Of a stretch of 64,000 bases of DNA, positions 5,821-35,724 are shown one piece after another (position 1 is the stretch's first letter; every line of letters begins with the position of its first letter). Origin of the DNA: Rhodococcus oryzae (GTDB taxonomy: Bacteria; Actinomycetota; Actinomycetes; Mycobacteriales; Mycobacteriaceae); NCBI RefSeq assembly GCF_005049235.1, contig NZ_SUMD01000008.1:1-64000 (forward strand), read 5' to 3'. The position numbers were made by a program, and so were the translations under genes. A model generated the notes under the pieces. It saw nothing but the letters and a program-made list of their open reading frames with translations, did not search any database and was not told the DNA's origin.

Positions 5821-6579
5821 GTGGCATCCATCGACCTCAACAGCGACCTCGGCGAGAGCTTCGGCGCCTGGCGGCTCGGCGACGACGAGGCCATGCTTGC
5901 CCTGGTGACCAGCGCGAATGTCGCGTGCGGGTTCCACGCGGGTGATCCGACCACACTGCTGAACACCTGCCGGTCCGCGGCGCAGCGGACCGTGCGGATC
6001 GGCGCGCAGGTCGGCTATCGGGACCTGGCCGGTTTCGGGCGGCGGTTCATCGACATCGCCCCCGCGGACCTGACCGCGGACGTGATCTATCAGATCGGCG
6101 GCCTCGACGCCCTCGCGCAGACCGTCGGCTCAGCCGTCGCCTACGTCAAACCCCATGGCGCCCTGTACAACGCGATCGTGCACCACCGCGAGCAGGCCCG
6201 CGCCGTCGTCGCGGCCGTGGTCGCGTACGACCCCACGCTCCCGGTGCTCGGCCTGCCGGGTTCGGTCTTCCTGGCGGAGGCGGAGTCCGCCGGCCTGCGC
6301 ACTGTGGCAGAGGCATTCGCCGACCGCGGATACACCCCGACCGGCGAGCTGGTGCCCCGCGGACTGCCAGGCGCGATGCTCTCGGACCCGGAGTCCGTCG
6401 CCGCGCGGGTGCTGCGGATGGTCGAGCACGCGGAGATCGAGGCCGTCGACGGCACGGTTCTGGCCTCGCCTGCCGAATCCGTCTGCGTGCACGGGGATTC
6501 GCCGTCGGCGGTCGCGATGGCCGCCGCCATCCGCGCGCGACTCGACGACGCGGGCGTGCGCGTGGAGCCGTTCGTCTGA
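5821..6579 (+). CDS. pxpA: 5-oxoprolinase subunit A (LamB/YcsF family)
   Basis: A 252-residue protein with the family marks [11 protein letters not shown] (residues 5-15), [12 protein letters not shown] and [10 protein letters not shown]. PxpA acts with PxpB and PxpC to hydrolyse 5-oxoproline (pyroglutamate) to glutamate at the cost of ATP, a housekeeping repair step. GTG start with TAGGAT at 5807-5812 just upstream. It is coupled to pxpB by a one-base stop-start overlap (TGATG), but pxpC is displaced almost 3 kb downstream. Confidence 0.9.
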
Positions 6580-7190
6580 TGCGCCTGCTGGACGCGGGCG
6601 ACGGCGGGGTGCTCGCCGAGTTCGACGACCTGGACACCGTGCTCGCGCACTACCGGGCGCTGGACTCGAACCGCCCGGCGGGCGTCGTCGACCTGGTCCC
6701 GGCCGCCCGGACGATCCTGGTGCGGTTCGACCCCGGTCGCACCGATCGAGCCCGCATCGCGCGCTGGCTGCGCGAGACCGGTCCGGAGTCCGGAACCTAC
6801 GCGGAGACCGGTGCGCTGGTACGGATTCCCGTTCACTACGACGGCCCGGACCTGGCCGCGGTCGGTGAACTGACGGGCCTCGGTCCGGACGGCGTCGTCG
6901 CGGCGCACACGGGCGGTGATTGGACCGTCGCCTTCGCCGGGTTCGCCCCCGGGTTCGGGTACCTCGTCGGGGGCGATTCCCGGCTGCGGGTACCCCGCCG
7001 GGACGACCCCCGCACCGAGGTGCCCGCGGGCGCGGTCGGGCTGGCGGGCGAGTTCTCCGGCGTCTACCCGCGGAAGTCGCCGGGCGGCTGGCAGCTGATC
7101 GGCCACACCACCGAGCGGATGTGGGACGCCGACCGCGAGCCGCCCGCGCTGCTCCGACCAGGGGACACGGTCCGGTTCGTCGCGGTCTGA
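6579..7190 (+). CDS. pxpB: 5-oxoprolinase subunit B (KipI-like)
   Basis: A 203-residue protein of the carboxyltransferase subdomain C/D (KipI, AHS1) family. The family's conserved core FAGFAPGFGYLVG and VPAGAVGLAGEFSGVYP lie in the second half. It pairs with PxpC to form the ATP-dependent part of 5-oxoprolinase. It overlaps the pxpA stop codon. The usual neighbour pxpC is absent immediately downstream, where a repeated 64-bp element and an exporter gene intervene. Confidence 0.88.
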   Translation: MRLLDAGDGGVLAEFDDLDTVLAHYRALDSNRPAGVVDLVPAARTILVRFDPGRTDRARIARWLRETGPESGTYAETGALVRIPVHYDGPDLAAVGELTGLGPDGVVAAHTGGDWTVAFAGFAPGFGYLVGGDSRLRVPRRDDPRTEVPAGAVGLAGEFSGVYPRKSPGGWQLIGHTTERMWDADREPPALLRPGDTVRFVAV

Positions 7191-20900: not shown

Positions 20901-21536
20901 TCAGTCGACAACCTCTCCGACGTCGCCGACGGAGGCCTGCAGCTGCACGCGGCCGTCGGAGAGCTTGTATGTGACGCCGACGATGGCGCAGGATCCCCGC
21001 TCCACCCGGTCCGCGATGATCCGGGACCGCTGCATCAACAGGCTGCCGGTCTCGACGACGTGCCGGGCCTCGAGCTCGTCGATCTCCTTCAGGCCCTCGT
21101 TGCGGCCCATCAGGATCGACGGCGCGACCCGCTCGACGACATCGCGGATGAATCCGTTCGGGATCGCCCCCTTGTCGAGCGCGTCGAGGGTCGCCTTGAC
21201 CGCGCCGCAGCTGTCGTGGCCGAGGACCACGATCAGCGGCACGTTGAGGATCTCCACCGCGTACTCGATGGACCCGAGCACGGAGCTGTCGATGACGTGG
21301 CCGGCCGTGCGCACCACGAACATGTCGCCGAGGCCTTGGTCGAAGATGATCTCCGCGGCGACGCGCGAGTCACCACAGCCGAACAGCACCGCGGTGGGGT
21401 GCTGTCCGTCGACGAGTTTCGCCCGGTCGGCGATGCCCTGGCTGGGGTGCAGCGAGGCGTCGTTCACGAAGCGGTCGTTACCCTGCTTCAGTGCCTTCCA
21501 GGCCGAGATGGGGTTCGAGTTGGGCATGTCAGTCAT
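20901..21536 (-). CDS. beta-class carbonic anhydrase
   Basis: A 211-residue enzyme interconverting carbon dioxide and bicarbonate. The zinc ligands are Cys54 (GCGDSR, with the Asp56-Arg58 dyad), His107 and Cys110 (LGHDSCGA). Length and context match Rv3588c (CanB) beside mutY. ATG at 21536 fits the homologue's length; ATG 21527 is possible. It is divergent from mutY. Confidence 0.92.
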   Translation of the reverse strand: MTDMPNSNPISAWKALKQGNDRFVNDASLHPSQGIADRAKLVDGQHPTAVLFGCGDSRVAAEIIFDQGLGDMFVVRTAGHVIDSSVLGSIEYAVEILNVPLIVVLGHDSCGAVKATLDALDKGAIPNGFIRDVVERVAPSILMGRNEGLKEIDELEARHVVETGSLLMQRSRIIADRVERGSCAIVGVTYKLSDGRVQLQASVGDVGEVVD

Positions 21537-21607
21537 TGTGCACCCGGCGCTTTCTGCGTTTCGTTCGCCACCTGGCAAAACCGTGAAATGGGAGGTGTGA
21601 AGTTCAA

Positions 21608-22477
21608 GTGAACACCTCCGCACTGATCGCATGGTACGAGCGTCAGGCCCGTGACCTGCCCTGGAGACGCGAGGGCGTCACCGCGTGGCAGATCCTGATG
21701 AGCGAGATCATGCTGCAGCAGACGCCGGTGGTCCGCGTCGCGCCGATCTGGGAGCAATGGGTGCAGCGCTGGCCGGTGCCCTCGTTGATGGCCGCGTCGA
21801 GCCAGGGCGAGGTGCTGCGCGCCTGGGGCAAGCTCGGCTACCCGCGCCGGGCCCTGCGGCTGCACGAATGCGCGCGGGTGCTGGCCGCCGAACACGGCGA
21901 CGCCGTCCCCGCCGACGTGGACGTCCTGCTCGGTCTGCCGGGAATCGGCGCGTACACCGCCCGCGCGGTGGCCTGCTTCGCCTACGGGCAGCGGGTCCCG
22001 GTGGTGGACACCAACGTCCGGCGCGTGGTGGCCCGCGCCGTGCACGGCGCCGCCGAGCCCGGCAATCCGTCCACCACCCGCGACCTCGCCGACGTCGACG
22101 CGCTGCTCCCGCGGACCAGGGCGAGGGCCGCGGTGTTCTCGGCCGCGCTGATGGAGTTGGGCGCGACCGTGTGCACCGCGCGCAACGCCGACTGCGACCG
22201 CTGCCCGCTGACCGACTGCGCGTGGGTCAGCGCGGGTCGCCCGGCCCACACCGGGCCCGCGCGCAAGGTGCAGAAGTTCGCGGGCACCGATCGTCAGGTC
22301 CGCGGCCGCTTGCTGGACGTGCTGCGGCAGACCCATGCGCCGGTCGAACGGGCGCGGCTCGACCAGGCGTGGCTGACGGACCCCGCGCAGCGGGACCGGG
22401 CGCTGGACTCGCTTCTCATGGACGGACTGGTCGAACAGACCGAGGACGGGTTGTTCGCGCTCGCAGGGGAAGCCTGA
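21608..22477 (+). CDS. mutY: A/G-specific adenine DNA glycosylase
   Basis: A 289-residue base-excision repair enzyme that removes adenine paired with 8-oxoguanine. The catalytic Glu33 lies in SEIMLQQTP, the helix-hairpin-helix in LLGLPGIGAYTARA, and Asp134 in VVDTNVRR. An iron-sulphur cluster is expected from Cys189, 196, 199 and 204; the last spacing is four residues, one fewer than the usual C-x6-C-x2-C-x5-C. It lacks the long C-terminal MutT-like domain of the E. coli protein. GTG start. Confidence 0.92.
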   Translation: MNTSALIAWYERQARDLPWRREGVTAWQILMSEIMLQQTPVVRVAPIWEQWVQRWPVPSLMAASSQGEVLRAWGKLGYPRRALRLHECARVLAAEHGDAVPADVDVLLGLPGIGAYTARAVACFAYGQRVPVVDTNVRRVVARAVHGAAEPGNPSTTRDLADVDALLPRTRARAAVFSAALMELGATVCTARNADCDRCPLTDCAWVSAGRPAHTGPARKVQKFAGTDRQVRGRLLDVLRQTHAPVERARLDQAWLTDPAQRDRALDSLLMDGLVEQTEDGLFALAGEA

Positions 22478-28387: not shown

Positions 28388-28500
28388 GAGTGCGCTGGTA
28401 ATAGCGATGGTTGACGGGAATCCGGTGAGAGTCCGGAGCGGTCGCGCCACTGTGATCGAGGCACACCCTCGACAGCCAGATACCGGGGCCATCGCATGGG
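28388..28500 (+). ncRNA. cobalamin riboswitch controlling cbtBA
   Basis: The hallmarks are in order: GGGAATCCGGTGAGAGTCCGG (in 28416-28436), GCGGTCGCGCCACTGTGA (28438-28455) and the B12-box-like AGCCAGATACC (28474-28484). GCGATGG (28404-28410) pairs with CCATCGC (28489-28495) to close the aptamer. High adenosylcobalamin should shut off cbtB-cbtA. A CTTTTT run at 28501-28506 directly follows the closing stem, so control may be by termination or by masking the AGGAGGA site at 28524-28530. Confidence 0.93.
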
Positions 28501-28533
28501 CTTTTTAAGGGACGCGGAATCCCAGGAGGAACC

Positions 28534-28728
28534 ATGGCACTCGTACACAATCCCAGCACGGCGACCGATTCTGTCGGCATCGCGATGATCATCGCGGGCG
28601 TGGTCCTGCTCGCGATGCTGACCCTCTACCTGGTCGGCTTCGACCAGGGTGCGGTCTCGCGCACCGGCATGTACATGCACGAACTGATGCATGACGGTCG
28701 GCACCTGCTGGGCCTGCCGTGCCACTGA
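28534..28728 (+). CDS. cbtB: CbtB cobalt transport subunit, copy 1
   Basis: A 64-residue protein with one membrane helix (residues 15-35) and a His-rich C terminus MYMHELMHDGRHLLGLPCH that fits metal binding. CbtB is a known partner of the CbtA cobalt transporter in B12-regulated operons. It starts 10 bases... more exactly at ATG 28534 behind a perfect AGGAGGA site and overlaps cbtA by 10 bases. A paralogue 75% identical by hand count lies at 33244. Confidence 0.93.
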   Translation: MALVHNPSTATDSVGIAMIIAGVVLLAMLTLYLVGFDQGAVSRTGMYMHELMHDGRHLLGLPCH

Positions 28729-29528
28729 CCGGAACCTTCAAGAACCTCCTCATCCGCGGCCTGCTGGCCGGCCTCGTCGCCGGACTGCTCGCCGGTGCCG
28801 TCGCGTTCGTGATCGGCGAACCGCACATCGACGCGGCCATCGCGATCGAGGAGGCCGCGGCGGCGCCCGTCGAGCCGCACGGGCACGGCGCGGCAGCGAC
28901 CGAGGCTGTGACCGACGAGCCCGCGGGGCACTCGCACGGCGACTCCGAGGAACCACTGGTCAGCAGGGACGGGCAGCGGTTCGGCCTGTTCCTCGCGACC
29001 AGCCTCGCCGGTCTCGCGCTCGGCGCCCTGTTCGCCGCGGTCGCGTACTACGCGCGGCGGGTCAGCGGCCTGTCCGGACCGATCCTCGCCCTGACCCTTG
29101 CCGGTCTCGGCTGGCTTGCGGTCGAGGCGGTGCCGTTCTTCAAGTATCCGGCGAACCCGCCCGCGGTCGGGGACCCGGAGACCATCAACAACCGGACGTG
29201 GCTGTGGCTCGCCGCGGTGGCGCTCGGCCTCGCCGCGGTGTCGATCGCCGCCTACGTGGCAAAGGTGGTGGCGGCCAACCAGTTCCTGACCGTCCGGATC
29301 GCCGCCCCGCTGCTCGCCTTCCTGGCGGTCGCCGGAATCGGCTACCTGGTGCTCCCGGACATCAACGAGGTCGGCCCCGACTTCCCCGCCAGCCTGCTGT
29401 GGGACTTCCGGGTGTCCTCGCTGACGATCCAGGCCACGTTGTGGCTGGCGCTCGGCCTCGGGTTCGCGTTCCTCACAGAGCGCGCCGCGAAGGCGAGCTC
29501 CCGGTCGGAGGCGCTGACCGCCCGCTGA
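28719..29528 (+). CDS. cbtA: CbtA cobalt transporter
   Basis: A 269-residue membrane protein with about six hydrophobic segments. A His/Glu-rich loop follows the first helix (EPHGHG at 51-56, GHSHGD near 68-73) and may collect cobalt outside the membrane. CbtA proteins are predicted cobalt importers from their B12-riboswitch context. It starts with GTG inside the end of cbtB, so the two are coupled, and ends before a strong terminator. Cobalt supplied here can feed cobalamin or the cobalt enzyme encoded at 33490-34885. Confidence 0.88.
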   Translation: MPLTGTFKNLLIRGLLAGLVAGLLAGAVAFVIGEPHIDAAIAIEEAAAAPVEPHGHGAAATEAVTDEPAGHSHGDSEEPLVSRDGQRFGLFLATSLAGLALGALFAAVAYYARRVSGLSGPILALTLAGLGWLAVEAVPFFKYPANPPAVGDPETINNRTWLWLAAVALGLAAVSIAAYVAKVVAANQFLTVRIAAPLLAFLAVAGIGYLVLPDINEVGPDFPASLLWDFRVSSLTIQATLWLALGLGFAFLTERAAKASSRSEALTAR

Positions 29529-29687: not shown

Positions 29688-30140
29688 ATGACCACCACCG
29701 AGATCCGCACCCGCCCGCCACACCAGGTCGAGCTCTCCTTCACCCTGCTCTCCGTCGCACTGCTCGCGGGCATCGTCGAGGCGATCCTCCAGGCCGCTCG
29801 CGCGCTGGAAGAGGGCGGCGCGAGTCCGTCCGCGATTGCCGTCCAGGGCGCGATCCGGCTGGCGATCTACGGCGCGGTGTACGCGCTCGCCGTCGCGATG
29901 CGGCGCGGCTCGAACCCCGCCCGGCTGACCCTGCTGGTCGGCCTCGGGACGGTGGGAATCGGGTCGCTGGTCATCGAGCCTGCGGCCTGGCTGTTGTCAG
30001 CGAACGGATTCGACGTCGCGGACCTCACGGTCGCATCGACCCTCATCGGCCTGGCACGCACCGTCCACCTGATAGCCGTGGTCGTCGGGCTCGGCCTGCT
30101 GCTGGGCGCGGGCGCCCGAAGGTACTTCGCGCGCCGCTAG
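29688..30140 (+). CDS. four-helix membrane protein of unknown function
   Basis: A 150-residue protein with four predicted membrane helices (residues about 16-36, 55-70, 80-103 and 122-143) and short loops. I do not recognise a family. It lies after the cbtBA terminator and overlaps by four bases the end of the converging DsbA-like gene, so it is probably transcribed alone. There are no obvious metal-binding motifs. Confidence 0.65.
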   Translation: MTTTEIRTRPPHQVELSFTLLSVALLAGIVEAILQAARALEEGGASPSAIAVQGAIRLAIYGAVYALAVAMRRGSNPARLTLLVGLGTVGIGSLVIEPAAWLLSANGFDVADLTVASTLIGLARTVHLIAVVVGLGLLLGAGARRYFARR

Positions 30141-31448: not shown

Positions 31449-33038
31449 CTACACGCCGCTCGACTGCTCCGCGGCGGTGTCCACCTCGTGGTAGTGCGCC
31501 AACAGGGTTCGTTCCTCCTCGCGCTTCGGGAACGCGAAGAAGACCAGGACGGCGCCGACCAGCACGATGAGGATCGCGGCGGCGTACGCCTTGGTGTCGC
31601 CGTCGAGGAAGGCCGAACGGGCCGCGGTCATGATCGGCTCCGCGTACTGCGGATACCGCTCCGCGATGTTCGCGGCGCCCGCGAAGGACTTCTCCAGCGT
31701 GGACTCCACCTCCGAGCTCACCTGGCTCGCCTCCGGGGTCGCGTTGATCGCCGCGGTGAACGAAGCCGTGTAGCCCGCCGTCAGCAGCGCGCCGAGCACG
31801 GACTGGACGATGGCGCCGCCGAGGTCGCGCTGCAGATCCGCCGTGCCCGAGGCCATCCCGGCCCGGGACACCGGCACCGAGCCGGTCAGCGACCGGGAGG
31901 CAGGCGTACCCGCGAGCCCCACCCCGATGCCGAGGAAGATGTAGCCGAGCGCGATCTTCCAGTACTGCGCGTCCTCCTTCCACAGCAGCAACGCCACCAC
32001 CAGGCCCGCCAGGATTGCCGTGTACCCGAGCAGCAGGGTGAACCGGGCACCGTGGGATTCGACCAGCTTCGCCGACTGCGGCGCGACCAGCACCATCACT
32101 GCGGCTGCGGGCAGCCCCGCCGATCCCGCGGCGAGCGTGGAGTACCCCAACACGTTCTGCATGAACTGCTGGCCGATGTACATCGTGCCCATCAGGGTTC
32201 CGAACACGACGATGCCCGCCACCGCGGCCACCCAGAAGATCCGTCGACTCGCGATCTGCAGGTCGAACAGGGGCGCGGGCGCGCGCAGCTGCCGGAACAC
32301 GAAGACCACGCCTGCCGCCAACGCGATGATCAGCAGCCCCACCGCGGTCGCGCCCATCCCGTCGACCGGCGCGAAGTTGATGCCGAGGACAAGCGCGGCA
32401 ACGAGGACGACGGACACCATGCCGCCGAGGTGATCGACGGGATCGGTCGACTCGTTGACGTGGCTTGGCACGAAGGTGATCGCCAGGGCGAGCGCGATCA
32501 ACGCCAGGGGCAGCGTGATGAAGAAGACCGATCCCCACTCGAACCACTGCAGCAACGCCCCCGATGCGAGCGGCCCCAACGCCGAGATGCCGCCACCGAT
32601 CGCCGACCACAGCGCGATCGCCTTGGTCCTCGCTGCGCCGGACCACAGCGCCGTGATCAGTGCCAGCGTGGTCGGAAAGGCCAGGCCCGCGCTGATGCCG
32701 CCGAACAGCCGGGCCAGGAACAGCACCTCGACGTTCGGCGCGAAGGCGGCGACCAGGCTGGCCGGTATCGACAACACCATGCCCAGCACCAGCATCGTCT
32801 TGCGGCCGTACCGGTCGCCGAGGGCGCCGAGGTACAGCACCGACGCCGCCAGACCGACCGAGTAGCCGACCGCGATCAGGTTCAGCTGGGTCTGGCTGGC
32901 GTCGAACGCCTTTCCGATGTCCGGGAGCGCGACGTTCGCGACCGCGAGGTTCAGGTTCGCCACGGCGGCGACGATGATGAGCGAGAGCAGGACGAGGCGG
33001 GCCCGCGAGGGCCGGTCTCCGGAGGTAGTGATCGCCAC
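31449..33038 (-). CDS. MFS multidrug exporter (DHA2, EmrB/QacA type)
   Basis: A 529-residue transporter with about 14 membrane helices. LNLAVANVALPDIGKAF near residue 30 and LYLGALGDRYGRKTML (motif A) are family marks. The helix 13-14 loop is long (residues about 410-480), as in QacA-like pumps, and the C terminus is acidic. The substrate is unknown. GTG start. It is divergent from the cbtB2-thiocyanate-hydrolase operon. Confidence 0.83.
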   Translation of the reverse strand: MAITTSGDRPSRARLVLLSLIIVAAVANLNLAVANVALPDIGKAFDASQTQLNLIAVGYSVGLAASVLYLGALGDRYGRKTMLVLGMVLSIPASLVAAFAPNVEVLFLARLFGGISAGLAFPTTLALITALWSGAARTKAIALWSAIGGGISALGPLASGALLQWFEWGSVFFITLPLALIALALAITFVPSHVNESTDPVDHLGGMVSVVLVAALVLGINFAPVDGMGATAVGLLIIALAAGVVFVFRQLRAPAPLFDLQIASRRIFWVAAVAGIVVFGTLMGTMYIGQQFMQNVLGYSTLAAGSAGLPAAAVMVLVAPQSAKLVESHGARFTLLLGYTAILAGLVVALLLWKEDAQYWKIALGYIFLGIGVGLAGTPASRSLTGSVPVSRAGMASGTADLQRDLGGAIVQSVLGALLTAGYTASFTAAINATPEASQVSSEVESTLEKSFAGAANIAERYPQYAEPIMTAARSAFLDGDTKAYAAAILIVLVGAVLVFFAFPKREEERTLLAHYHEVDTAAEQSSGV

Positions 33039-33148
33039 CCGCCAAGTTCACACCAAACCCGGGCCCGCCGCCGCATCGGCGCGCCCACGTGGCCCTTCGG
33101 GACTCCGCGGAAAAGCCGGGATCGGCGCGGAGCCGCGGTGTAGCCTCA

Positions 33149-33229
33149 GAATGCGGTGAACGTGATGGGGATCACTCCCCCGCGCCGCGGGCACACGCCG
33201 AGCTTCAGCTGGATCACGGGACGTCCCGT
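33149..33229 (+). promoter_or_regulatory. diverged cobalamin-riboswitch-like leader of the cbtB2 operon
   Basis: Blocks shared with the true riboswitch at 28418 occur in the same order: GAAT-n-CGGTGA (33149-33159), CGCGCC (33181), GGCACAC (33190), CAGC (33206), GAT (33212), CGGG (33217). Offsets agree within two bases except CGCGCC, which is shifted by seven. The CACTGT core and the exact B12 box are lost, and the new hairpins GTGAT-gggg-ATCAC (33162-33175) and the 14-bp palindrome ACGGGACGTCCCGT (33216-33229) appear. It may no longer bind cobalamin. Confidence 0.5.
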
Positions 33230-33243
33230 CACCAGGAGGAACC

Positions 33244-33438
33244 ATGGCCCTAGTCCATTCACCAAGCGGGACAGCGGAGTCGCTGCGCGCGATCACCCTC
33301 GTCGTCGGCGTGATCCTGCTCGCGCTGCTCACCCTCTACCTGGTCGGATTCGACCAGGGGGCGATCTCACGCACCGGCATGTACATGCACGAACTGATGC
33401 ACGACGGCCGTCACCTGCTCGGCTTGCCCTGCCACTAG
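33244..33438 (+). CDS. CbtB-like cobalt-binding membrane protein, copy 2
   Basis: A 64-residue paralogue of the CbtB at 28534. The membrane helix (residues 16-35) is variable, but the last 35 residues, including HELMHDGRHLLGLPCH, are almost unchanged. The bases before the start (CCAGGAGGAACCATGGC) are identical in both copies, pointing to duplication of leader plus gene. No cbtA follows; instead the cobalt hydratase subunit genes begin 51 bases downstream, so this copy probably supplies cobalt for that enzyme. Confidence 0.88.
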   Translation: MALVHSPSGTAESLRAITLVVGVILLALLTLYLVGFDQGAISRTGMYMHELMHDGRHLLGLPCH

Positions 33439-33489
33439 CCGAAGCAGCGAGCACGATCGGCCAGAGGCTCACGAACGACGGAGACCTCG

Positions 33490-33915
33490 ATGAGTTCACC
33501 GGACAGTTTCGACGCACTGCAGACTCGGGTCGCGGATATCGCACCGGTCTATCGCGATCCGCTCGACTCGCCCTACGAGATCTCCAATGAGATGTTCGCG
33601 GCGTTGCGGCACGTCCTCCACGATGTCGGCGGCCAACCCGACCTCCCGATCGACTACAAGGAGAAGGTCGAAGAACCCTGGGAGATGAGCACGTACGTCA
33701 CCTGCGAATGCCTGGGCTGGCGCGGCGTGTGGAACTCCGAGGAGCGGCGCCGGGCGGAGAACGACCTCGGCGCGACGCTCTACTTCGGACTCCCCTACTA
33801 CGCCCGTTGGGCCACCGTCGCCGCGAAGACCCTCATCAACAAGGGCCTGATCACCCCCGACGAACTGTCGGCCAAGCTGGACGAGGTGCGGGCACGTACG
33901 AAGGCGGCGTCATGA
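33490..33915 (+). CDS. thiocyanate hydrolase/nitrile hydratase beta subunit (N-terminal half type)
   Basis: A 141-residue protein matching the helical N-terminal half of nitrile hydratase beta: LPYYARWATVAAKTLINKGL with ITPDELSAKL aligns with the helix pair before the SH3-like domain. In thiocyanate hydrolase the beta chain is split in two genes, as here. A CECLGWRG motif (Cys72, Cys74) is shared with the protein at 34885. Its stop overlaps the next start (ATGA). It could be called a nitrile hydratase subunit instead; substrate is not settled by sequence. Confidence 0.78.
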   Translation: MSSPDSFDALQTRVADIAPVYRDPLDSPYEISNEMFAALRHVLHDVGGQPDLPIDYKEKVEEPWEMSTYVTCECLGWRGVWNSEERRRAENDLGATLYFGLPYYARWATVAAKTLINKGLITPDELSAKLDEVRARTKAAS

Positions 33916-34208
33916 CGAAGTTCCAGATCGGAGACCGCGTCACCGTAAGGGACGCGACATCGATGTTCCACACCAGGACCCAGGCGTACACCCGCGGCCG
34001 GACCGGGGTGGTGGTCGAGCACCGCCCGGAGTGGGTGATCCCCGAGGACGAGGCATGGGGACGCGAGGACGGCCGCAAGGAACCCTTCTACGTCGTGCGG
34101 TTCCGGCAGCGCGACCTGTGGCCGAAGTACACCGGATTTGACGCCGACACCCTCGAGACCGAGTGCTCGGAGCGGTGGCTGGAACCCGCCGAGGAGGAGC
34201 CGAAGTGA
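33912..34208 (+). CDS. thiocyanate hydrolase/nitrile hydratase alpha subunit (SH3-like, C-terminal half of NHase beta)
   Basis: A 98-residue SH3-like barrel that corresponds to the C-terminal half of nitrile hydratase beta. FQIGDRVTVRD, FHTRTQAYTRGRTGVVV, PFYVVRFRQRDLW and the final CSERWLEPAE follow the family in order. The HTR arginine contacts the oxidised cysteine claw in solved relatives. It is encoded between the other two subunits and overlaps both genes (ATGA before, GTGA after), so equal synthesis is expected. Confidence 0.82.
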   Translation: MTKFQIGDRVTVRDATSMFHTRTQAYTRGRTGVVVEHRPEWVIPEDEAWGREDGRKEPFYVVRFRQRDLWPKYTGFDADTLETECSERWLEPAEEEPK

Positions 34209-34885
34209 GCCAGACGCACGATCACCACGCACCGATCCAGGAGTCAGGAGAGATCAGCGAGTTCGAGATCCTGGAGACGGCCGTCCGGGAACTGGCGATC
34301 GAGAAGGGCCTGTTCTCTGCCGAGGACCACCGGCGCTTCTCGGAGTGGGCCGAGTCCGTCGGTCCCGCAGGCGGATCGCGGCTGGTGGCCAAGGCCTGGA
34401 CGGACCCCGAGTTCAAGGCACGACTGCTCGCCGACGGCACCGAGACCTGCAAGGAGGTCGGCATCGACTGGCGGGACCCGACCGGGTCAGGGACCCCGAG
34501 CGACTACACGTACTTCTACGTCCTGGAAAACACCCCGACGGTGCACAACGTGATCGTCTGCACCCTGTGTTCCTGCTACCCGCGGCCGGTGCTCGGCATG
34601 TCGCCGGACTGGTACCGCACGCCGAATTACCGGAGGCGCCTGGTCCGCTGGCCGCGAGAGGTGCTCGCGGAGTTCGGGTTACACATGCCGCCCGAGGTCG
34701 AGGTGCGGGTGCACGACTCGAACCAGAAGTCGCGGTTCATGGTGATGCCGATGCGTCCAGAGGGCACCGAGGGGTGGACCGAGGAACAGCTCGCCGCCAT
34801 CGTCACCCGCGACACCATGATCGGGGTCGCGCTGCCCCAGGTCGACTGGACCGCCTCCGAGCCCCCGTCCAAGGTCGGTGCGTGA
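34205..34885 (+). CDS. cobalt-type catalytic subunit of thiocyanate hydrolase/nitrile hydratase
   Basis: A 226-residue catalytic subunit (gamma in thiocyanate hydrolase, alpha in nitrile hydratase). The metal claw VCTLCSCYP (Cys119, 122, 124, Ser123) has Thr after the first Cys, which marks the cobalt class; iron enzymes have Ser. Two of the cysteines should be oxidised to sulphenate and sulphinate. WYRTPNYRRRLVRWPREVL follows, as in the family. The His-rich start (SQTHDHHAP) may help capture cobalt. The reaction is hydration of a nitrile or thiocyanate carbon. GTG start overlaps the preceding stop. Confidence 0.9.
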   Translation: MSQTHDHHAPIQESGEISEFEILETAVRELAIEKGLFSAEDHRRFSEWAESVGPAGGSRLVAKAWTDPEFKARLLADGTETCKEVGIDWRDPTGSGTPSDYTYFYVLENTPTVHNVIVCTLCSCYPRPVLGMSPDWYRTPNYRRRLVRWPREVLAEFGLHMPPEVEVRVHDSNQKSRFMVMPMRPEGTEGWTEEQLAAIVTRDTMIGVALPQVDWTASEPPSKVGA

Positions 34886-35211
34886 TGAGCGACGGATACC
34901 GAGTGCTGTTCGACACGCTCGAGCCCGGGTCCCGGCGCGAGTCGAGCCTGCCCGATCTGGACGGGAAGCCGGCGCCGTGGGAGTCGAGCATGCAGGCCAC
35001 CTGCGAATGCCTGTCCTGGCGGGGGGCGCTGGACAACCTGGAGCGACGCGAGGCCGAGGACGAGCTCGGCGAGACCATCTACCTCGATTTCCCGGTCCGG
35101 GCGCGCTCGGCGGTGGTGACCGCGCACGCCCTGCTGGACCTGGGCATCATCGACCAGGAGGAACTGCGGTCGAAGATGGAGGCGGTGCGGGAGCGGTTCG
35201 AGCGCGAGTGA
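34885..35211 (+). CDS. probable maturation protein of the cobalt hydratase (P15K/activator-like)
   Basis: A 108-residue protein related to the beta subunit at 33490: both have the CECLxWRG motif and an alike helical end (VVTAHALLDLGII with DQEELRSKM). In thiocyanate-hydrolase and cobalt nitrile-hydratase operons a small beta-like activator follows the catalytic subunit and inserts oxidised-claw cobalt by subunit exchange; this gene has that position. Overlap with the upstream stop is one base (TGATG). Function is inferred from position and similarity. Confidence 0.7.
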   Translation: MSDGYRVLFDTLEPGSRRESSLPDLDGKPAPWESSMQATCECLSWRGALDNLERREAEDELGETIYLDFPVRARSAVVTAHALLDLGIIDQEELRSKMEAVRERFERE

Positions 35212-35217
35212 TGCCAC

Positions 35218-35232
35218 CGGCGAGCATCGCCG
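35218..35232. terminator. hairpin after the cobalt-hydratase operon
   Basis: CGGCGA-gca-TCGCCG lies between the operon's last stop and the stop of the converging thioesterase gene. It is short and lacks a T-run. Confidence 0.35.
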
Positions 35233-35236
35233 CCGG

Positions 35237-35671
35237 TCAGCCGACCTGATAGGTCCCCATGCCCTTGGCCACCAGCGTGCCCCCGGCGGTGGTCACGATG
35301 TCCACGGAGCAACTGCTCAGCCGGCGGCCCTGCCGCACGCGCGTTCCGATGATGTCGACGTCCTCGGCGAACGCCGGCTCGAGGAACTGGATCGACATGG
35401 CGACGGTGACGCCCCGCAGCTTCTCGGGGACCCGCGGCCCGGCCCACGCCGCGGCCATGATCCCGATGTCGATACACCCGGCGAGCGCGCCGCCGTGGAC
35501 CATCTCGCCGACGGTGACCAGGTTTTCGCGGAACGGCATGCGCAGGCGTGCGTGATCGTCGCCGATGTCGATGAGCTCGATACCGAGGTGTTGCACGAAG
35601 GGCGAATGCGGCAGGAACAGCCTCATCGCCTCGGAGCCCGTGGTGGGTGCCTGAATTGTTGCTTCGGACAT
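35237..35671 (-). CDS. hotdog-fold thioesterase (PaaI-like)
   Basis: A 144-residue hotdog protein: GEMVHGGALAGCIDIGIMAA holds the HGG motif and the catalytic acidic residue. It should hydrolyse acyl- or aryl-CoA. ATG 35671 is taken as the start; GTG 35680 is possible. It is divergent from a TetR gene with a 60-base gap, and TetR regulators of acyl-CoA metabolism are often arranged like this. Confidence 0.8.
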   Translation of the reverse strand: MSEATIQAPTTGSEAMRLFLPHSPFVQHLGIELIDIGDDHARLRMPFRENLVTVGEMVHGGALAGCIDIGIMAAAWAGPRVPEKLRGVTVAMSIQFLEPAFAEDVDIIGTRVRQGRRLSSCSVDIVTTAGGTLVAKGMGTYQVG

Positions 35672-35694
35672 GACCCTCACCCCTCAATCAGAGT

Positions 35695-35724
35695 TTGACT
35701 ACGTTTTCGGAACTGTACTACGGT
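35695..35724 (+). promoter_or_regulatory. tetR promoter and possible operator
   Basis: TTGACT (35695-35700) and TACGGT (35719-35724) are 18 bases apart, and the ATG is seven bases past the -10 box. Two direct repeats, ACTACG followed by G or T and TTTC (35698 and 35717), overlap both promoter boxes and may be where TetR binds. Confidence 0.45.

Follow-up and report, generated by a model that had tools for sequence, protein, structure and literature searches.

Thiocyanate hydrolase (SCNase) catalyses the reaction SCN- + 2 H2O -> COS + NH3 + OH-. The closest described system is ScnBAC of Thiobacillus thioparus (structure 2dd4), in which we take the gene order to be beta, alpha, gamma and activator, the gene for the activator P15K presumably following scnC; P15K is reportedly the SCNase activator, in work attributed to Kataoka in 2006. 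Here we describe a predicted three-subunit SCNase operon that is headed by its own copy of cbtB, in a 64,000-nucleotide stretch of Rhodococcus oryzae (contig NZ_SUMD01000008.1, positions 1 to 64,000; hereafter the window) from a genome of 5.37 Mb in 31 contigs. Comparative genomics led to the prediction that CbtAB transports cobalt (PMC2667541), and CRISPR interference against a cbtB in Methylococcus raised growth, with less cobalt having the same effect, which fits a role in uptake (PMC13108547). According to PMC5328954, scnABC of Thiobacillus is preceded by genes for a cyanase, a methylase and one lone subunit of a cobalt transporter, and a figure legend there mentions different cobalt uptake systems in two compared species; actinobacterial SCNases are included in a published tree (PMC10098168). 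With a transporter subunit beside scn genes already in print, the coupling as such is therefore known. The enzyme, too, is of a known kind, but its cobalt-supply arrangement looks new: within the open-access literature, we found no description of a lone scn-linked CbtB with a riboswitch-linked CbtB1-CbtA pair nearby, and no paper treating thiocyanate hydrolase together with CbtB. Little is known about how cells divide scarce cobalt between vitamin B12 and the non-corrin enzymes that need the metal, and the locus presents two copies of one uptake subunit whose control differs: one copy is linked to B12, the other to a cobalt hydrolase.

The operon lies on the plus strand and begins with cbtB2 (33244..33438), which scores 54.8 bits against Pfam PF09489 (cut-off 27). 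After a gap of 51 bases follow scnB, encoding the predicted beta subunit (33490..33915; NHase_beta_N, 71.8 bits; 2dd4_B, E 5.1e-38), scnA, encoding the alpha subunit (33912..34208; NHase_beta_C, 77.4 bits; 2dd4_A, E 5.9e-23), scnC, encoding the catalytic gamma subunit with the cobalt claw CTLCSC and Arg127 (34205..34885; NHase_alpha, 266.7 bits; 2dd4_C, E 2.6e-93), and a gene for a small beta-N-like protein (34885..35211; NHase_beta_N, 22.0 bits, cut-off 21.5; 2dd4_B, E 3.6e-11). All junctions after scnB overlap (ATGA at 33912, GTGA at 34205 and TGATG at 34883-34887), and cbtB2 and the scn genes probably form one transcript. The closest named locus is that of Rhodococcus maanshanensis, with a 98% identical scnC. 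The initial annotation had already placed these five genes (cbtB2 at 33244, the others at 33490, 33912, 34205 and 34885), each of which gained support from a profile or structure match, and its claw VCTLCSCYP is present in scnC. Its reading of three subunits and an activator in the order beta-alpha-gamma-activator was likewise borne out.

Whether the enzyme is a thiocyanate hydrolase or a nitrile hydratase (NHase) had been left between the two. Against the thiocyanate hydrolase gamma model TIGR03887, scnC scores 402.7 bits (cut-off 291.45, E 2.9e-121), and against the nitrile hydratase alpha model TIGR01323 it reaches 229.6 bits, below the cut-off of 249.85. The reverse pattern is seen for eight NHase sequences, which score 266.9-294.2 bits on TIGR01323, over its cut-off, and stay under that of TIGR03887. 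A tree was built from 34 SCNase rows (the window, T. thioparus and 32 loci picked from a set of 80, itself the best 80 of 330 confirmed relatives) and these 8 NHase rows, chosen among the 37 matches below the TIGR03887 cut-off listed in our draw of genomes of the family. The two groups separate at 100/100, with scnC on the SCNase side. In a 90-row alignment, the residue three past the claw is Arg in 82/82 SCNase rows (the 80 loci, the window and T. thioparus) and Trp in 8/8 NHase rows, while the claw itself reads CTLCSC in 62 SCNase rows and CALCSC in 20. The Arg corresponds to Arg127 in the window's scnC and Arg136 in 2dd4_C numbering, and the solved 3vyg chain has Trp there. We assume that this Arg beside the claw contributes to thiocyanate selection; a literature search for arginines in substrate selectivity gave nothing useful.

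Structure comparison points the same way. Among solved proteins, the T. thioparus enzyme 2dd4 gives the top match to all four products: its chain C to scnC, chain B to scnB, chain A to scnA, and chain B again to the small protein. As in a split NHase beta chain, the two halves stand on separate genes, NHase_beta_N in scnB and NHase_beta_C in scnA. The window enzyme shares with T. thioparus the claw and the adjoining Arg; it differs in lying on another branch of the family and in having shorter beta and alpha chains (141 and 98 residues, compared with 157 and 126 in 2dd4). A relative of the small last gene comes after scnC in most of the 80 loci, and the sole significant solved match of its product is 2dd4_B, the thiocyanate hydrolase beta chain. 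By position and sequence this gene is best read as encoding a P15K-type activator, a reading preferred over that of a plain beta-like protein and one that the activator remark of the initial annotation fits. scnC also exceeds the cut-off of the NHLP leader peptide model TIGR03793 (57.9 vs 50.9 bits), as do the NHase rows; NHase alpha chains and NHLP leaders are known kin.

Three-subunit nitrile hydratases exist, ToyJKL being an example, and the fold and claw are common to cobalt nitrile hydratases, so that the operon could encode such an enzyme or one acting on another cyano compound. We regard this as very improbable and reject a nitrile hydratase identity: TIGR01323 stays under its cut-off with TIGR03887 far exceeded, the tree divides at 100/100, and Arg127 stands in place of Trp. 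Because model scores, tree and pocket residue agree, the enzyme is very probably a three-subunit cobalt thiocyanate hydrolase, and the thiocyanate hydrolase half of the earlier alternative is the one that stands, as judged from sequence. No further NHase-type alpha gene besides scnC was found in the genome. The absence from the genome of a detectable gene resembling carbonyl sulfide (COS) hydrolase speaks mildly against a full thiocyanate pathway and to that extent for the nitrile hydratase reading. A single beta-carbonic anhydrase gene was found in the genome, at 20901-21632 on the minus strand of the window; the solved proteins closest to its product are 2a5v/1ym3 (about 4e-90), with COS hydrolase 3vqj at 5.3e-4. 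A laxer search returned this same gene, although COS hydrolases may escape the model used (PF00484), and a back-translated search for CMD[AS]R, which we take as a COS hydrolase motif, gave no match. Thiocyanate is the probable physiological substrate. In Mycobacterium smegmatis, two SCNase subunits are listed as raised in a PII mutant grown on 1 mM nitrate (PMC11001197), which suggests a role in nitrogen metabolism.

The genome as a whole holds two CbtB genes, one for CbtA and one for NicO (NiCoT), the last lying elsewhere, outside the region of the operon. Upstream of cbtB2 by 3.7 kb and on the same strand lies a second copy, cbtB1 (28534..28728; PF09489, 52.2 bits), overlapping cbtA (28719..29528; PF09490, 239.8 bits), the single CbtA match across the genome. 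This pair is preceded by a cobalamin riboswitch (28391..28507, plus strand; Rfam RF00174, 41.0 bits, gathering 31.5, E 6.2e-07). The description of the operon's gene as a CbtB without CbtA is accordingly correct for the operon but not for its surroundings. A hidden riboswitch ahead of cbtB2 was considered and rejected, a Cobalamin search of 32990-33300 being empty at E up to 5. Both CbtBs fall far below the narrower TIGR02459 cut-off (21.7 and 19.0 vs 64.4). They belong to the same small-subunit family and their metal-binding tails are almost identical in alignment; the His tail of CbtB2 ends in PCH, and the pattern HExMHDxRHLLGxPCH is conserved among actinobacterial lone CbtB copies. The cbtB1-cbtA unit (28391-29528) differs from cbtB2 in its riboswitch and in being present also in members of the genus that have no scnC (G002 and G004).

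Neighbouring genes were sought in the 80 SCNase loci with models from actinobacterial seeds, with distance counted from scnC. CbtB lies within about 3.2 kb in 23/80. Eight loci (L003, L007, L016, L017, L018, L020, L022 and L033) share a lone cbtB directly 5' of scnB and a cbtBA pair upstream of that; cbtA and cbtB2 are 2.0-3.7 kb apart in seven of them and 0.1 kb apart in L020, a short contig with the unbroken order cbtB, cbtA, cbtB2, scnB, scnA, scnC, activator. In seven others, which we call Prescottella-type (L034, L035, L037, L039, L040, L041 and L043), cbtBA stands immediately 5' of scnB. The pair is downstream in four (L046, L047, L048, L050) and on the opposite strand in two (L044, L045), and two mycobacterial loci have a cbtB without an adjoining cbtA, on the other strand in L019 and downstream in L024. 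The CbtBs of L019 and L024 fall in a different CbtB group and occupy other positions, and they may be further, unconnected instances of this arrangement. NicO (NiCoT) lies within about 3 kb in 9/80 (L029, L031, L036, L038, L042, L052, L063, L066, L082). Beyond these distances, L004 has NicO at about 7 kb, and weak matches to CbtB or CbtA occur 4-5 kb downstream in L054, L055, L057 and L060.

At gathering score, a cobalamin riboswitch is found 5' of cbtB1 in 7/8 of the lone-cbtB loci, the exception being L020. It was found in none of eight other loci (cbtBA is scn-linked in six of them and downstream in two), and it precedes cbtB1 in 6 of 11 additional stretches, at least two of these six repeating earlier loci. 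In the stretches searched, no riboswitch match lies 5' of cbtB2 or of the scn-linked cbtBA pairs.

The link between scn and a second CbtB was also followed at genome level. Our draw covered 401 genomes of the family, with scnC over its cut-off in 113 and CbtB in 287; counts were limited to four related genera (g1, g10, g23 and g27, holding 27 of the 113 scnC genomes) and to the CbtB matches listed. A CbtB lies within 3 kb of scnC in 26/27 scnC genomes, so that the survey for cbtB beside scn that had been suggested by the initial annotation finds a recurring arrangement. At least two CbtBs are present in 25/27 genomes with scnC and in 0/35 without it, the latter count leaving aside G003 (broken scnC, two CbtBs), G277 (g23, no CbtB match listed) and genomes outside the listed matches. 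Fisher's test gives 2e-15, a value that overstates independence because the counted genomes are related. The same contrast is visible within the window's own genus, where G000, G001 and G005 have scnC and two CbtBs, whereas scnC and a second CbtB are both missing from G002 and G004. The second copy tracks scn across the four genera. The exception to the 26/27, G129, has no CbtB in the 11 kb stretch around its locus (L124); in that stretch a single uninterrupted frame (5870-6697) is matched by both the scnB and the scnA model, which may mean a fusion of beta and alpha. Among the matches listed for genus g22, which is probably Nocardia, inspection by eye showed no CbtB adjoining scnC.

What seems to be new is the placement of CbtB2, which falls with the CbtBs beside Prescottella-type SCNase operons and apart from the riboswitch-linked CbtB, its own CbtA having seemingly been lost. 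In a CbtB tree of 43 rows, 14 riboswitch-type CbtBs, cbtB1 among them, stand on one side of a branch with 94/91; of these, 11 have a riboswitch reaching the gathering score, L105 lies just under (29.3 vs 31.5), and none was found in L020 and L106. On the other side are 10 lone and 11 scn-paired rows (the latter from eight genomes, three entered twice), which this alignment of 64 columns does not separate from each other. The 11 scn-paired rows group together in the CbtA tree (86/90). The simplest reading of these trees would be that a B12-linked and an scn-linked copy parted long ago and that the lineage of the window probably lost the second CbtA; the trees also accommodate the alternative that Prescottella-type genomes gained theirs. 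Prescottella-type cbtBA-scnBAC resembles the window operon in its side of the CbtB tree, in the position of CbtB before scnB and in having no riboswitch in the six searched, and differs in that CbtA lies between CbtB and scnB, where the window lineage has none.

The apparently fuller state seen in Prescottella-type loci raises the question of whether CbtB2 is simply a remnant of a cbtB2-cbtA2-scn cassette present in an ancestor, retained through its position and contributing little. Divergence between close species is indeed greater for the lone copy: between the window and R. maanshanensis, the nonsynonymous rate (dN) is 0.081 for cbtB2, with a synonymous rate (dS) of 0.24, and 0.0 for CbtB1, so that constraint on cbtB2 is moderate. 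However, dS exceeds dN in all 15 lone cbtB pairs computed, which come from 6 of the 10 lone copies, and the frame and metal-binding tail are intact in 10/10 lone copies, even where scn is broken. We therefore consider the remnant explanation rather improbable.

The overall explanation that we consider best, and moderately likely, is that CbtB2 is dedicated to the scn operon, is tied to the cobalt thiocyanate hydrolase and works with the single CbtA. scnBAC would yield a three-subunit cobalt enzyme matured by the P15K-like activator, and cbtB2 would be the copy of the small subunit for cobalt uptake that is devoted to scn. Its ancestor probably had its own CbtA, as in Prescottella-type relatives, and would have lost it in this Rhodococcus lineage. 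CbtB2 would then most likely pair with the sole remaining CbtA under the cobalamin riboswitch, and cobalt capture would rise with SCNase synthesis instead of following B12 status alone. Such tracking is feasible because cbtB2 has no riboswitch and sits inside the scn operon. That CbtB2 serves the cobalt supply of SCNase is the likelier part of this proposal, and we hold it probable, with cobalt as the presumed cargo; for supply through joint action with the single CbtA, we see the chances as evenly balanced. A more specific version, which we put forward tentatively and consider somewhat doubtful, has two interchangeable CbtBs per CbtA permease, with CbtB1 (B12 riboswitch) directing cobalt to corrin synthesis and CbtB2 (scn) to non-corrin use. 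If true, the small subunit would assign cobalt uptake to a named enzyme.

A CbtB without its own CbtA also raises the question of what each subunit does. CbtB2 might act without CbtA, as a membrane protein with one helix that gathers cobalt on its His/Cys tail and passes it to the activator or to another importer such as NiCoT. The operons of the lone-cbtB Rhodococcus loci have no cbtA, the scn-adjoining CbtBs of L019 and L024 have no neighbouring CbtA either, a NicO gene is present elsewhere in the genome, and the tail is kept in the actinobacterial lone copies. Set against this, all 16 distinct lone-cbtB genomes searched (21 entries before removing repeats) retain a CbtA, and the near-identical tails of CbtB1 and CbtB2 fit the same partner. 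Exactly one CbtA is found in 12/14 lone-cbtB Rhodococcus genomes besides the window's, the exceptions being G237 with three and G271 with one plus one split over two matches; of the mycobacterial genomes, that of L019 has one CbtA and that of L024 two over the cut-off. Independent action of CbtB2 thus appears unlikely, though less so than a remnant.

Several observations weigh against a dedicated CbtB2 working with CbtA. When B12 closes the riboswitch, CbtA would become scarce while CbtB2 alone is made, so the idea of a shared CbtA leaves a gap. The NiCoT elsewhere in the genome could be an alternative cobalt source. No recognised importer lies within about 3.2 kb in 48/80 SCNase loci (all 17 Nocardia, 17 mycobacterial and 14 other, some with short flanks), and the CbtB-scn link is therefore not required. 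Outside the four genera, three genomes of g16 carry two CbtBs each: G080, which does not appear among the listed scnC matches, and G020 and G046, where neither copy is near scnC. In G003, scnB, scnA and scnC are broken with cbtB2 intact. CbtB has 64 residues, so its tree rests on few columns. Finally, Methylobacterium overexpressing CbtAB grew no better under stress (PMC2773004). The G003 locus (L088, 4100-5400) has a truncated scnB, an unmatched scnA and an scnC without the claw stretch, and its cbtB2 and activator gene look intact.

Cobalt importer genes also accompany cobalt NHase operons, either CbtBA or NiCoT/NhlF, the NiCoT transporter being unrelated to CbtB. We examined 12 hand-picked NHase alpha-gene stretches from the same family, eight from genomes listed with at least two CbtBs and G190 for its listed CbtB; the residue beside the claw is Trp in 12/12. 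CbtB lies within about 1 kb of the alpha gene in 5/12. CbtA accompanies it in four of these, with CbtBA directly downstream of the NHase genes (L112 from G180, L113 from G262, L117 from G021 and L118 from G371), unlike in the window operon, and the contig ends in the fifth, L122. NicO is within 2 kb in 3/12 (L119, L120, L123), and neither is present in 4/12 (L114, L115, L116, L121). These neighbourhoods fit a supply of non-corrin cobalt by CbtBA. Because CbtBA occurs beside cobalt nitrile hydratases too, what sets the Rhodococcus scn operon apart is that its CbtB stands alone. The view that coupling to CbtB is itself unusual did not hold, given CbtB near 23/80 and NiCoT near 9/80 SCNase loci, the 5/12 and 3/12 picked NHase stretches, and the published Thiobacillus transporter subunit (PMC5328954).

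A weak candidate promoter -10 region, GTGTAGCCTCAG (33138..33149, plus strand, 5' of cbtB2), was noted by eye in alignments; it is the same in L003, has one difference in L088 and lies further upstream in L007. Scans of 32900-35700 for sigma-70 consensus promoters and terminators gave no match, GTGTAGCCTCAG included. The GNAAC repeat, which we take as a GlnR-like site, occurs with one mismatch allowed 35 times in the window (25.6 expected) and not in 33040-33244. Between cbtA and cbtB2 lie a plus-strand gene for a small membrane protein and then minus-strand FrnE-like, OsmC-like and MFS genes, named from reading their translations. The first of these (29688-30140), between cbtA and the FrnE-like gene, has relatives in 5/80 loci (L003, L016, L017, L018, L033). 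Convergent with the scn operon is a thioesterase-like gene (35237-35680, minus strand). Near that position, 13/80 loci, all of Rhodococcus or Prescottella type, carry a minus-strand family of 145 residues which, by position and length, is probably the thioesterase-like family of the window.

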